NCBI RefSeq assembly: GCF_009865385.1
Contig: NZ_WWJT01000788.1
Location: forward strand, 1 to 64,000
Reading direction: 5' to 3'
DNA length: 64,000 bases
Source: Streptomyces sp. SID486
GTDB taxonomy: Bacteria; Actinomycetota; Actinomycetes; Streptomycetales; Streptomycetaceae
Part shown: one piece after another, positions 36,822-40,126 of the stretch
Position numbering within the stretch: position 1 is the stretch's first letter
Layout of the letters: each line of letters opens with the position of its first letter
Made by a program: the position numbers and the translations under genes
The notes under the pieces: generated by a model
What the model saw: the letters and a program-made list of their open reading frames with translations, nothing else
What the model was told of the DNA's origin: nothing
The model's database searches: none

Positions 36822-37156
36822 AGCTCATCACCGCGATCGTCAAGCCCTACCGTCTGGACGAGGTCAAGACCGCTCTGCAGGAGCTGGGGGTGCACGGGCT
36901 GACCGTGACCGAGGCGAGCGGCTACGGCCGCCAGCGCGGTCACACCGAGGTGTACCGGGGGGCCGAGTACCGGGTGGATCTGGTGCCGAAGGTGCGTATC
37001 GAGGTCGTGGTGGAGGACGCCGTCGCCGAGGACGTCATCGACGCGGTCGTCAGGGCCGCGCAGACGGGGAAGATCGGGGACGGGAAGGTGTGGTCCGTTC
37101 CGGTGGAGACGGTCGTGCGGGTGCGCACCGGCGAGCGCGGGCCCGACGCGCTCTGA
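36818..37156 (+). CDS. glnK: nitrogen regulatory protein PII (GlnK type)
   Basis: A 112-residue PII signal protein that reads energy and 2-oxoglutarate and plugs Amt when ammonium is plentiful. The N-terminus [17 protein letters not shown], the T-loop with modifiable Tyr ([11 protein letters not shown]), and the C-terminal [12 protein letters not shown] are all typical. Coupled to amt by a 4-base overlap. No glnD (modifying enzyme) follows, unlike the usual amtB-glnK-glnD operon. Its 3' end is overlapped for 107 bases by the convergent surface-protein gene. Confidence 0.94.
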
Positions 37157-38066
37157 CCAGCAGCGCCCCGGTCAGCGCACCGGCGGCGAGGACCAGCGCC
37201 ACCATCAGCCAGGGCAGCGCGAGGAAGCCGGCCCCGGCCGACTGGCGGGTGCCGGGCGCGCTCGCGGTCAGGGTCACGTCGCCCCGGTCGAACTGCGGCG
37301 CCCCGCGCCAGGTCTCGGTGAGCCGTACCCGCTGGCCCGGCAGCAGTTCGGCGGGCACCCGGGCGAGGTCCCGGTCGAGCAGCGTACGGCCGAACAGCCC
37401 GCGCGCCGTCAGCTCCACCCTGGGGGCGAGGGTGACGTTGCCGGTGTTGCGCAGGGTGTAGGAGATGGTCGCCGTGCTGTCGCCGAGGCCGGGGACGAGC
37501 GGCTGATGGTGGCTGACACGCACGTGTTCGACGGAGAGGGCGGGCAGCGTGGGCCCGCCGACGCGGAGGTAGACACGGGCGCCGACGGCCCGCTGCACCC
37601 CGAGGGCGAGCTTTCCGCTGCCGGGGGCGATCCGCTCGTCCAGGGCCACGACGGCGCCGGGGTGGTCGCCCGGCACGGCGTCGTCGGGGACGCGCAGGGT
37701 GAAGGGCACGGTGACGGTGCGGTGGGCCGGCACGGTGACGCGGGTCTTCGCGGGTCTGGCCCAGGCGCCCACCCCGCGCATGTGTTCCCTCAGGGTGCGC
37801 ACGGCGAAACCGCCGTCCCGGGTGGTGTTGTAGGCGTCGGCCGCGTAGAGCCGGAAGGTGAGCGGCCGGCCGGTCTTGTTCTGGACGGCGACCCGGTCGG
37901 TGAGGGTCTGGCCGGGTTCGGCGGTGAGGGTGAAGTAGGGCCGCGCGGCGACCTCTGAGGCGACCGGGTAGACGGACCAGCTGCCGTTGTCGGCGCCGTG
38001 GGCGGTGCCGGACGGCAGGCCGAGGAGGAGGAGCAGGCTCAGGAGGAGGGCGTACGGCGTGCGCAT
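37050..38066 (-). CDS. WxL-interacting (DUF916-like) membrane-anchored surface protein
   Basis: A 338-residue protein with a signal peptide ([24 protein letters not shown]), an extracellular part of about 260 residues, one transmembrane helix ([24 protein letters not shown]) and a short, very basic tail. The extracellular start ([42 protein letters not shown]) is the DUF916/WxL-interacting pattern, thought to bind peptidoglycan. ATG 38066. It lies just downstream of a WxL-like secreted protein gene, and the two probably act together at the cell surface. The C-terminal 35 codons run antisense over glnK. Confidence 0.78.
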
Positions 38067-38169
38067 GGGTGCGGACCCCCGCGTGGGCTCGGGCGGGCGG
38101 TGGCGGTCGGACGGGTGCGGCCCCGGTCGTACGGCGGGGCGCCCGGCCACCGGTGTCGGTTGCGCTCGG

Positions 38170-39498
38170 TCAGGTGAGGGTGAGGGTCAGGACTCCGGAG
38201 TACGAGCCGGGGGGTGTGAACGCCGGTACGTCCAGGGAGAGGCCGGCGTCGACGGTGAACTCGCCGCCGGTGAGGGTGCCGTTCGGGGTGGAGGCGAGGG
38301 TCGCTCCCGAGGTGCCGACGGTGCCCGCGGTGCCTGCCTTGCAGGTGCTGGGGCTGCCCGCCTTGGTCGCGCAGGCCGGGGTCCAGCTGAGCCTGCCCGC
38401 GTCGACCTTGGCGCCGGGGCCGCTGAAGTCGGTGACCTTGCCGGTCAGGGACCAGCCGGCGGGGCCGCCGCGGAAGTCCTTGACGGTCACCGTGTTCAGG
38501 GCGCCGGTGGAGGCTCCGCCCTGGCCGAAGTCGACCGCCGACAGGGCGACGGAGTCCCCGGCCTGGGACATGGACAGGGTGCCCGCCTTGACGGTGGTGG
38601 TCAGCTTCTGGCTGCCGTCCGGGACGGGTGTGGTGTCGTTGACGGCGTAGGCCGCGGGACCGGCACCCTTGTCCGCGTTCCAGGAGCCGCCCTCGTAGGC
38701 CACGATCCCGGTCGTCGCCGTGTCGTTGACGACGAGGGAGCCGCTGAAGGAGCCCTGGGCGTTCGCGGTCACGGTCGCGGTGTCCGCGGTCTGGGTGTCA
38801 CCGGCCCGGCCGGCCAGGGTGACGGCCGCGCCCGGGGTGAAGTGCGTCCCGCTGACGGTGACCGCGGCGCCGGGGTCACCGGAGGCGGAGCCGAGCGAGA
38901 TGGACCGGGTGTTGGCCGGGGTGCCGTCGGTCGCGGTCACGGTCTGCGAGACCGGGGCGGGCGGCGTGATGACGGTACAGGGGGTGTCCAGCTCCAGGAT
39001 GTAGCTGGTGTGGATGTTGTAGTCGCCGGGCGAGAGGGTGATCCGGCCGGGCGCGGTGACGGTGAACGTGCCGGTCATGGAGAAGGACGGGAAGGCGGCC
39101 CGCCCCGGCACCGGCGGGTTCTTCTTCGGTCCGGCGACGGTCACGCCGCCGGTCTGGGCGCCGCCGAGGGTGACCTTGCCGGTCGGCGTCATGATGTCGG
39201 CCGGCAGGGCCAGGTCGGTGGGGTTGCTGGCGGCGGCGGTGACCACCGTGTAGGTCACGGTGACCGTGTCGCCGACCTTCGGGGTGGTGTTGTCCACCGA
39301 CACGCTCGCGGTGGTGGTGCCGTCGATCGGCGGGATGCCGGCGACGGCGGGCGGGATGCAGTGCGTGGCGAAGTCCACGTTCGTGCCGGCGGCGCCGGCC
39401 GGGCAGGCCAGCGCGCCGCCCGCGGTGACCGCGAGGGCGGTCGCCCCGAGCAGTGACGCCCAGCGCCACCGTCGGGCTCTTCGGGGTGTCGAACCCAT
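38170..39498 (-). CDS. secreted surface protein with WxL-like C-terminal domain
   Basis: A 442-residue exported protein: signal peptide to about residue 37, a first beta-rich domain with paired Cys, a TIG-like middle domain (GDPGAAVTVSGTHFTPGAAVTL, about 210-300) and a C-terminal beta domain with GWSLTG followed by LSWTPAC and ending GSYSGVLTLTLT, which resembles WxL cell-wall-binding domains of Firmicutes. No LPXTG or membrane anchor, so it may be held through the DUF916-like partner encoded next. ATG 39498 follows AGGAGGGG. Function unknown. Confidence 0.7.
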   Translation of the reverse strand: MGSTPRRARRWRWASLLGATALAVTAGGALACPAGAAGTNVDFATHCIPPAVAGIPPIDGTTTASVSVDNTTPKVGDTVTVTYTVVTAAASNPTDLALPADIMTPTGKVTLGGAQTGGVTVAGPKKNPPVPGRAAFPSFSMTGTFTVTAPGRITLSPGDYNIHTSYILELDTPCTVITPPAPVSQTVTATDGTPANTRSISLGSASGDPGAAVTVSGTHFTPGAAVTLAGRAGDTQTADTATVTANAQGSFSGSLVVNDTATTGIVAYEGGSWNADKGAGPAAYAVNDTTPVPDGSQKLTTTVKAGTLSMSQAGDSVALSAVDFGQGGASTGALNTVTVKDFRGGPAGWSLTGKVTDFSGPGAKVDAGRLSWTPACATKAGSPSTCKAGTAGTVGTSGATLASTPNGTLTGGEFTVDAGLSLDVPAFTPPGSYSGVLTLTLT

Positions 39499-39585
39499 GG
39501 GCCCCCTCCTGAGGGTCGCTGGCGCAGCGGCTCGTCTGCGCCGACAGGGGGCATTGATGTGGAGCGGGGGTGAGAAGTCAATGGA

Positions 39586-39627
39586 GATGCCGCAGAAATC
39601 TGACGGATCATCAGTTTCTGCGGCATC
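39586..39627. terminator. terminator hairpin between the two secreted-protein genes
   Basis: An 18-base left arm (39586-39603) and a 17-base right arm (39611-39627) pair along their whole length apart from one bulged base, with a 7-base loop. It lies 22 bases past the stop of the small secreted protein on the minus strand, so that gene is probably a separate unit from the WxL-like pair. Confidence 0.7.
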
Positions 39628-39649
39628 CGGAACAGATGACCCGGGGCGG

Positions 39650-40126
39650 TCAGCTGAAGACGAACGGGCCGGGCGCCTGCCTGGCCGTCGCCGTACAGGT
39701 CACCGTGACCCCGAAGATCACCATTTTCAGCGAGCCGCCGTAGGCGTCCAGGCTAGCGCCGGAGGTGACGGTGCCGGGGAGCGGGCCGACGCTGACGGAG
39801 GAGCCCGCGCTCATGGCCGGGTTCTTCGTACCGCTGAACACGACGGTGCCGCCGCCGGCCTTGGCCATGGTGAGCGTGGAGGTGATCGTGTCCTGGGCCA
39901 CCGCGACCGGCGCGGTGATCGCGGAGGAGGTCAGGGTGAGGGTGGCCGAGGTGCCGCTCTGGGTGGCGGTGAGCGTGGCCGCGCCACCGCCGAAGATGCC
40001 GCAGCTCGCGTTGATGGTCGCCGTCTGGGGAGTGACGGCGGCCGCGGTGGGCGCGAAGGCGAGTCCGGTGACCGCGAGGGCCCCGGCGGCCAGTGCCGCA
40101 CCTGTTGCCGTGCGCTTGCCTCTCAT
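39650..40126 (-). CDS. small secreted beta-rich protein
   Basis: A 158-residue exported protein with a signal peptide ending near AAA (residue 30) and a mature part rich in Ala, Thr, Ser, Val and Gly with alternating strand pattern and two Cys (NASCGIF and VTCTAT) that could form one disulfide. AAGGGAAG precedes ATG 40126. It may be a third component of the adjacent WxL-like surface locus, judging only by position and similar composition. I do not recognise the family. Confidence 0.75.
   Translation of the reverse strand: MRGKRTATGAALAAGALAVTGLAFAPTAAAVTPQTATINASCGIFGGGAATLTATQSGTSATLTLTSSAITAPVAVAQDTITSTLTMAKAGGGTVVFSGTKNPAMSAGSSVSVGPLPGTVTSGASLDAYGGSLKMVIFGVTVTCTATARQAPGPFVFS

Follow-up and report, generated by a model that had tools for sequence, protein, structure and literature searches.

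A candidate one-motif WxL/WxLIP docking pair beside era in Streptomyces

Does Streptomyces use a surface docking system of the WxL/WxLIP type, and if so, what would it display there? The question is raised by a 64,000-nucleotide stretch of Streptomyces sp. SID486 (RefSeq assembly GCF_009865385.1, contig NZ_WWJT01000788.1, positions 1 to 64,000 of the forward strand), hereafter the window. Inspection of the letters alone (the sequence-only reading) had pointed to three adjoining genes on one strand, for a DUF916-type protein, a secreted protein with a WxL-like C-terminal domain and a small secreted beta-rich protein. The three genes lie where they were placed, all on the minus strand:

37050..38066 (-) P0001, WxLIP/DUF916 protein, putatively a membrane-anchored docking protein; 338 amino acids, ATG at 38066
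38170..39498 (-) P0002, large, putatively secreted WxL-type protein; 442 amino acids, orthologues found
39650..40126 (-) P0003, small, putatively secreted beta protein; 158 amino acids

WxL domains have been reported as more than 91% Firmicutes (PMC9772566; this and the other papers are cited from excerpts), and we found no description of a WxL/DUF916 pair in Streptomyces or other actinobacteria in one open-access literature library. We propose that P0001 and P0002 are probably an actinobacterial, one-motif version of the WxL/WxLIP docking pair, displaying cargo on the cell surface.

P0001 and the C-terminal domain of P0002

The description of P0001 as a DUF916-type, membrane-anchored protein held up well. 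The protein scores 38.9 bits (E=1e-9) with Pfam PF06030 (WxLIP_PGBD), above the curated cut-off of 27.3, and the same model matches 69 of the 70 members of the P0001 alignment (E<=0.01). It is the sole PF06030 match of its genome at E<=0.001, in an assembly (G000) whose 809 contigs and 6.42% contamination make genome-wide counts somewhat doubtful. A profile built on P0001 finds the Enterococcus faecium EfmWxLIP1 chains 9i25/9i1y (E=2.2e-9), two PDB entries known here by their titles alone. The AlphaFold2 model of P0001 (mean predicted local distance difference test score, pLDDT, 86.4) has as its best fold match 9i25_C, titled 'WxLIP from Enterococcus faecium locus A bound to long WxL' (Z 18.5, 239 residues aligned of a 251-residue target, root-mean-square deviation 5.2), followed by a second WxLIP entry at Z 17.3 and then by an entry at only 12.0. 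P0001 belongs to the WxLIP family. Predicted folds foreign to WxL/DUF916, or genes that do not keep company elsewhere, would have told against the sequence-only reading; it passes the first check by this fold match and the second by the gene order given below. Three parts of P0001 matter below:

37650..37946 (-) DUF916/WxLIP_PGBD domain of P0001, residues 41-139, PF06030 match
37131..37211 (-) C-terminal hydrophobic helix of P0001, residues 286-312 in the model, with an Arg-rich tail after it; assigned without a transmembrane predictor
37587..37640 (-) loop 143-160 of P0001, where pLDDT dips to about 80; possible equivalent of the Firmicutes WxL-inserting hairpin

The modelled helix and its Arg-rich tail are compatible with anchoring in the bacterium's own membrane. 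P0001 has a second immunoglobulin (Ig)-like domain, which the 9i25 fold match covers; the protein scores 25.7 bits with DUF7507, for which the cut-off is 27. Just the YFxL portion of the WxLIP segment NQIDKxxxYFDLK is kept, as AARPYFTL in P0001 (alignment consensus).

The partner gene encodes a protein whose C-terminal domain we assign to the WxL type because its close relatives exceed the cut-off of PF13731 (25 bits): over its last 151 residues P0002 shares 62% identity with a Streptomyces domain (L203) of 40.9 bits, and over 138 residues it shares 60% with a second one (L202) of 32.5 bits. PF13731 is matched by 50 of the 58 members of the WxL alignment (E<=0.1). In the reverse direction, an actinobacterial WxL-domain profile finds a Terribacillus protein annotated as WxL (E=1.4e-20), together with proteins of two more Firmicutes loci.

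38173..38610 (-) C-terminal WxL-type docking domain (putative) of P0002, residues 297-442, from the 62%-identical relative and motif counts
38446..38478 (-) WxL motif 1 of P0002, D341-x-R343 ... W349-x-L351, from the alignment

Motif 1 has been described in Firmicutes with D at W-8 and R at W-6 (PMC9772566). It is complete (D, R, W and L) in 84 of 84 Streptomyces sequences, while the 40 other actinobacterial sequences keep W in 40, D in 37, R in 36 and L in 14 (V in 17); these counts are of distinct strings, which include overlapping copies of a single locus, and 30 of the 124 rows come from short loci. At the position of motif 2 stands LTLTL instead of LTWxL, no W occurs within the last 15 residues of any of the 124 actinobacterial domains, and the motif 2 Trp is present in three of four Firmicutes sequences. 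A further W-x-P lies between the two motif sites in 84/84 Streptomyces sequences, its W recurring in 19/40 of the others. With motif 1 kept and motif 2 missing, P0002 is a one-motif variant and not a classical WxL protein. The WxL-like domain of the sequence-only reading thus stands on homology through relatives, on motif 1 and on the reverse search, but not on motif 2, and no solved WxL chain was matched.

The domain is terminal: P0002 ends in it, and in 38 of 40 survey matches the WxL domain lies four residues or fewer from the C-terminus (one being cut by the locus end). P0002 is also the only WxL match of its genome at E<=1. As a control, ten other stretches of the same genome (93,775 bases) were scanned for WxL and DUF916 and gave no match at E<=0.01 with default filters; with filters off, one chance-like WxL match of 14 bits (E=0.003) appeared in a low-complexity frame that had no motif 1 and no Pfam match. 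A Foldseek search with the whole P0002 model (mean pLDDT 80.8) returned poor multi-domain matches only.

Gene order, joint divergence and the case for docking

The sequence-only reading had proposed asking whether the genes occur together elsewhere, and they do. In all 80 Streptomyces loci picked with P0002 as query (the best 80 of 215 found), a WxL domain lies directly upstream of DUF916 on the same strand, and P0003 is present in 78 of them; a pair kept so consistently is not a chance arrangement. Full-length P0002 (at least 434 of 442 positions, at least 54% identity) occurs in 76 of 246 sampled Streptomyces genomes, and some P0002 match, shared domains included, in 162. Beyond the genus, in a phylum sample of 296 genomes, PF06030 matches 28 genomes (that of SID486 included) and PF13731 matches 10. 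Only 4 of the 296 pass the PF13731 cut-off, which thus misses many actinobacterial members. Among 29 survey genomes with a DUF916 locus, 21 have the WxL domain upstream on the same strand, with a domain-to-domain gap of 102-332 nt; counting only genomes picked through DUF916, the figure is 19 of 27. This adjacency count left out the short loci numbered 82-123 (overlapping copies of loci read later), and one locus in which DUF916 comes first and two WxL genes follow (L144) was not counted as adjacent.

The partners have also diverged together. Their divergences correlate with a Mantel r of 0.89 for 41 pairs, of 0.77 (p=1e-4) for 34 pairs once close orthologues are excluded, and of 0.74 (p=0.011) for six pairs taken from a single genome.

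Some loci depart from the simple pair. Two or three WxL-domain genes stand beside one DUF916 gene in L124, L125, L136, L142 and L161, an arrangement nearer to the Firmicutes cluster layout; ten loci have DUF916 and no WxL domain detected nearby (L128, L129, L140, L146, L152, L155, L156, L157, L162, L163). On a Latilactobacillus curvatus plasmid the WxL gene next to DUF916 (L164:5503-6480) is split into two frames and looks broken.

The locus shares with the Firmicutes WxL/WxLIP system (CscA-CscB-CscC) the WxLIP fold, the DUF916 domain and the C-terminal helix (excerpts of PMC1534035, PMC9772566 and PMC10599100). Also common to both are a C-terminal WxL domain with motif 1 (D-x-R-G ... W-x-L), the order of genes, with WxL upstream of an adjoining DUF916 in the three Firmicutes plasmid loci read, and the variable N-terminal cargo of the large WxL protein. 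Unlike the Firmicutes clusters, the Streptomyces pair lacks motif 2, and actinobacterial cargo includes catalytic domains.

From these likenesses we picture the pair as follows. The C-terminal helix of P0001 would fix it in the bacterial membrane, with its two Ig-like domains facing outside, and P0002, which has no anchor of its own, would dock on P0001 through its C-terminal WxL-type domain. The most likely mode of docking would be that P0001 lends a beta strand that completes the WxL beta-sandwich; in Firmicutes, the WxL sandwich has a gap that a WxLIP hairpin is predicted to close (PMC10599100). The outer part of P0002 would then point outwards, to the environment or the wall.

Several observations weigh against this proposal. 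PF11797 (WxLIP_HBD, DUF3324) was not found in P0001, and one of the 70 alignment members reaches E=0.0039 with it. P0002 alone scores 17 bits with PF13731 (E=0.0062, residues 325-372), below the cut-off, and the motif 2 Trp occurs in 0 of 124 actinobacterial WxL domains (one of them cut short there). The WxL partner of 9i25 was found neither by sequence nor among the 50 fold matches listed. The locus holds one WxL-type protein and no small WxL protein, unlike Firmicutes clusters, and Cellulosimicrobium and Clavibacter have two small WxL proteins that match our own profile but no Pfam model at E<=0.01. Nor do the two partners always travel together: 8 of the 27 DUF916-picked genomes have no neighbouring WxL (G044, G131, G164, G185, G209, G266, G276, G289), three Streptomyces loci (L197, L198, L240) carry WxL genes with no DUF916 detected within the stretch read, and DUF916 is also matched in Thermotoga maritima, where WxL is not. 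Finally, joint divergence can also be expected if linked genes duplicate together as a cassette.

The strongest competitor, which we consider doubtful rather than far-fetched, is that the WxL domain of P0002 attaches straight to peptidoglycan, P0001 being a stabiliser or assembly factor instead of an anchor. Peptidoglycan binding is the published view of Firmicutes WxL domains (excerpts of PMC9772566 and PMC10599100), and the eight genomes and three loci just mentioned suggest that the two proteins may act apart. The tight adjacency and joint divergence fit a dedicated partner, and the loss of motif 2 means that part of the proposed binding platform is not conserved.

It is less likely still, and in our view improbable, that P0001 acts as a transient chaperone, as in chaperone-usher pili, and passes P0002 on to a polymer or the wall. 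The idea draws on one solved complex, 6fqa: the P0001 model matches the chaperone CsuC (6fqa_C; Z 11.6, 190 residues, 4.7 A) and the model of the P0002 C-terminal domain matches the pilin CsuA/B (6fqa_D; Z 7.0, 116 residues, 3.2 A, a background-level Z). As in that pair, a two-domain Ig-like partner would meet an Ig-like subunit, and the strand donation of the chaperone-usher system is what has been predicted for insertion of a Firmicutes WxLIP strand into WxL (PMC10599100). However, Ig folds are common, P0001 carries a membrane helix that sets it apart from CsuC, the subunit fold score is weak, and no usher or polymer was seen, in work that included no search aimed at either. Since the CsuA/B score sits at background level, strand complementation is something we infer also under the docking proposal.

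That the three are unrelated secreted proteins sharing one housekeeping interval, with WxLIP homology limited to P0001, is very improbable. In its favour, P0003 occupies the era site with no such pair beside it in 6 of 10 chosen loci, a strong hairpin parts it from P0002, and P0002 alone falls under the WxL cut-off. Against it, P0002 and P0001 are paired in 80/80 loci, homologous pairs occur across the phylum at other sites, and the two have diverged jointly; these arguments bear on P0001 and P0002, not on P0003.

Outer domains of P0002 and cargo of actinobacterial WxL proteins

If P0002 docks on P0001, what it presents should lie in its two outer domains:

38914..39384 (-) N-terminal two-cysteine beta domain of P0002, residues 39-195; family from iterated search
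38638..38913 (-) middle Ig-like domain of P0002, residues 196-287, with a neocarzinostatin-like fold in the model

The N-terminal domain is distantly related to DUF6801, judged by profile alignment with three DUF6801 segments (hhalign, P=94.6%, E=7e-8). Other Streptomyces surface proteins, encoded next to DUF916 or divergent DUF916-like genes, contain it too, in many cases as tandem copies. Seven loci of other Streptomyces (L199, L200, L206, L207, L208, L236, L237) encode proteins with one or two copies; these flank a DUF916 or divergent DUF916-like gene and are devoid of any WxL domain, and at least one, in L199, ends in a sortase-like LAxTG tail. In L197, L198 and L240, a WxL protein with the N-terminal domain is followed by a second long N-domain protein. 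An apparent similarity between the P0002 N-terminus and L144 (E=2.5e-13) was dropped, as the E-value was for the full sequence and that part did not line up in the alignment.

The middle domain had been taken for a TIG-like domain. It is Ig-like and has a sub-threshold match to PF01833 (IPT/TIG; 13.9 bits, E=0.055, cut-off 20.9; one of three relatives reaches 15.3), but the fold score favours neocarzinostatin. Its four best fold matches are neocarzinostatin and macromomycin (Z 11.0-12.1), led by 1nco (Z 12.1, 88 residues, 2.2 A). With PF00960 (neocarzinostatin, cut-off 25) P0002 scores 15.9 bits (E=0.013) and three relatives score 21.9, 18.1 and nothing (E=1.9e-4 for an orthologue), whereas a profile of the middle domain against PDB places the neocarzinostatin entry 2cbq (E=0.91) behind an IPT/TIG chain (0.052). 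The modelled fold therefore seems closer to neocarzinostatin than to TIG, both being sub-threshold by sequence. For residues 39-287 of P0002 (window 38638-39384) a further fold alignment is with PDB 3lso (Z 10.2, 234 residues), a Corynebacterium protein putatively anchored in the membrane. We infer that the outer domains of P0002 are binding rather than catalytic modules, with a ligand in the wall or the environment.

The cargo on homologous docks elsewhere is varied. We scanned 27 long actinobacterial WxL proteins against Pfam (E<=0.001; one batch E<=0.01) and found a catalytic family in 10 of them: purple acid phosphatase (3), GH43 with ricin lectin (2), GH18, GDPD, phosphodiesterase, M64 peptidase and S15 peptidase. 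The others carry HtaA (1), CBM96 (1), DUF6801 (3), fn3 only (2) or nothing recognised besides WxL (10). All ten catalytic proteins are clustered with a DUF916 gene, which is partly selection, as most loci were fetched through DUF916; the GH43 locus L202 was picked by P0002 and not by DUF916. On a plasmid of S. goshikiensis, a 'RICIN domain-containing protein' is annotated beside a 'DUF916 domain-containing protein', and a GH43-ricin-WxL protein of this species lies beside a WxLIP, making a simple system in which docking would be testable by enzyme assay. On Cellulosimicrobium and Clavibacter plasmids a small protein annotated 'hypothetical', WxL by our own profile, stands beside DUF916, with GH43 and LamG or other sugar-related genes near these pairs. 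Such sugar-related cargo agrees with the idea of carbohydrate use put forward for L. plantarum by Siezen et al. (excerpt of PMC1534035). DUF916 and metallophosphatases have also been noted next to actinobacterial Ang-2 genes in a 2025 paper (PMC12537917, in excerpt), and phosphatase-WxL fusions may explain those neighbours.

The WxL domain would thus be a reusable C-terminal dock, bearing enzymes or binding modules elsewhere in actinobacteria, each beside a WxLIP gene. The occurrence of the same pair in Streptomyces, together with glycosidase, phosphatase and peptidase fusions in actinobacteria, argues for a wider role in surface display. Cohesin-dockerin and sortase (LPXTG) display likewise attach a range of secreted enzymes, through a small module at the C-terminus, to proteins of the membrane or wall. 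The WxL domain resembles these in being a small C-terminal module with varied cargo, a relation examined by Pfam scans alone. It differs in that no sortase signal follows the WxL domain at the end of P0002 and that each cargo gene has a dock gene next to it.

Host adhesion is not expected as a general role in Streptomyces. In Firmicutes, WxL/DUF916 clusters have been read as host-binding virulence platforms and the WxLIP helix has been proposed to enter the host membrane (excerpt of PMC10599100). We hold it an evenly balanced question whether WxL/WxLIP is, at root, something other than host adhesion: in actinobacteria a general, sortase-independent docking, through a one-motif WxL domain, of secreted enzymes and binding proteins (glycosidases, phosphatases, peptidases, haem-binding and lectin modules) to their dedicated, membrane-anchored WxLIP by pilus-chaperone-like strand complementation, with the WxLIP helix in the bacterium's own membrane and the Firmicutes host-binding clusters as one specialisation.

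P0003, noncoding elements and surroundings

P0003 looks, by eye, like the small secreted beta-rich protein that it had been called, and Pfam gives no match for it. The idea that it is a small WxL protein was rejected (-5 bits with the actinobacterial WxL profile). A P0003 profile matches second N-domain copies (E=8.1e-7 and 2.8e-6; 1.6e-7 and 1.3e-6 with filters off), and P0003 aligns with the N-domain profile alone at P=62% (E=7e-5). Against full-length P0002 profiles nothing was found, the matches to second N-domain copies were absent from one scan with default filters, and DUF6801 segments gave no match. P0003 is accordingly kept as a distant, though not a close, single-copy relative of the N-domain family. 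It has matches in 99 of 197 genomes of the order (E<=0.001; a few partial). Because it also stands alone at the era site, in 6 of 10 P0003 loci (a hand-chosen, non-random sample), it is not obligate to the pair; it is a facultative neighbour belonging to the same outer-domain family and not a proven member of the complex.

Two noncoding elements accompany the genes:

39585..39628 (-) strong RNA hairpin in the gap separating P0003 from P0002, -31.1 kcal/mol, z=-7.7, a stability equalled by none of 200 shuffles
40224..40265 (-) conserved block upstream of P0003, a TCAAT box and a CTGACGG-type palindrome

The inverted repeat of the hairpin is seen in the ten aligned rows shown, and its high stability suggests that P0003 and P0002 may be separate transcripts. 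The upstream block comes from an alignment of 28 of 82 extracted upstream regions, 14 of which were displayed. A sigma-70 promoter scan of 37000-40400 found none. Two imperfect copies of the palindrome CTGACGGNCCGTCAG lie at 39600-39614, upstream of P0002, and at 40229-40243, upstream of P0003; five one-mismatch copies of it lie on one contig (C662). Genome-wide, the CTGACGGWCCGTCRG palindrome is about twice as frequent as its reversed control (192/181 against 95/95 matches, with up to 2 mismatches), and within the window, with 3 mismatches allowed, the pattern occurs about as often as expected by chance. We rejected CTGACGGWCCGTCRG as a WxL-regulon marker: ten stretches around other copies had no DUF916, N-domain or P0003 matches, and their sole WxL match was the chance-like one of 14 bits.

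The trio is flanked by what we take, from recognition of their sequences, to be genes for a PII-like protein and for a small protein resembling cytidine deaminase; amtB and era presumably lie further out. The era gene is inside the stretch in 77 of 80 Streptomyces loci, the remaining three stretches being short; amtB and the PII-like gene are absent from some relatives' loci, amtB having no match in 11 of the 80 stretches. The S. coelicolor locus tags SCO2540-2543, tried as candidates for the locus, led to an unrelated gene only. In the window the amtB-PII pair (35499-37156) adjoins era, and the PII gene and P0001 converge, their 3' ends sharing about 107 bases (37050-37156).

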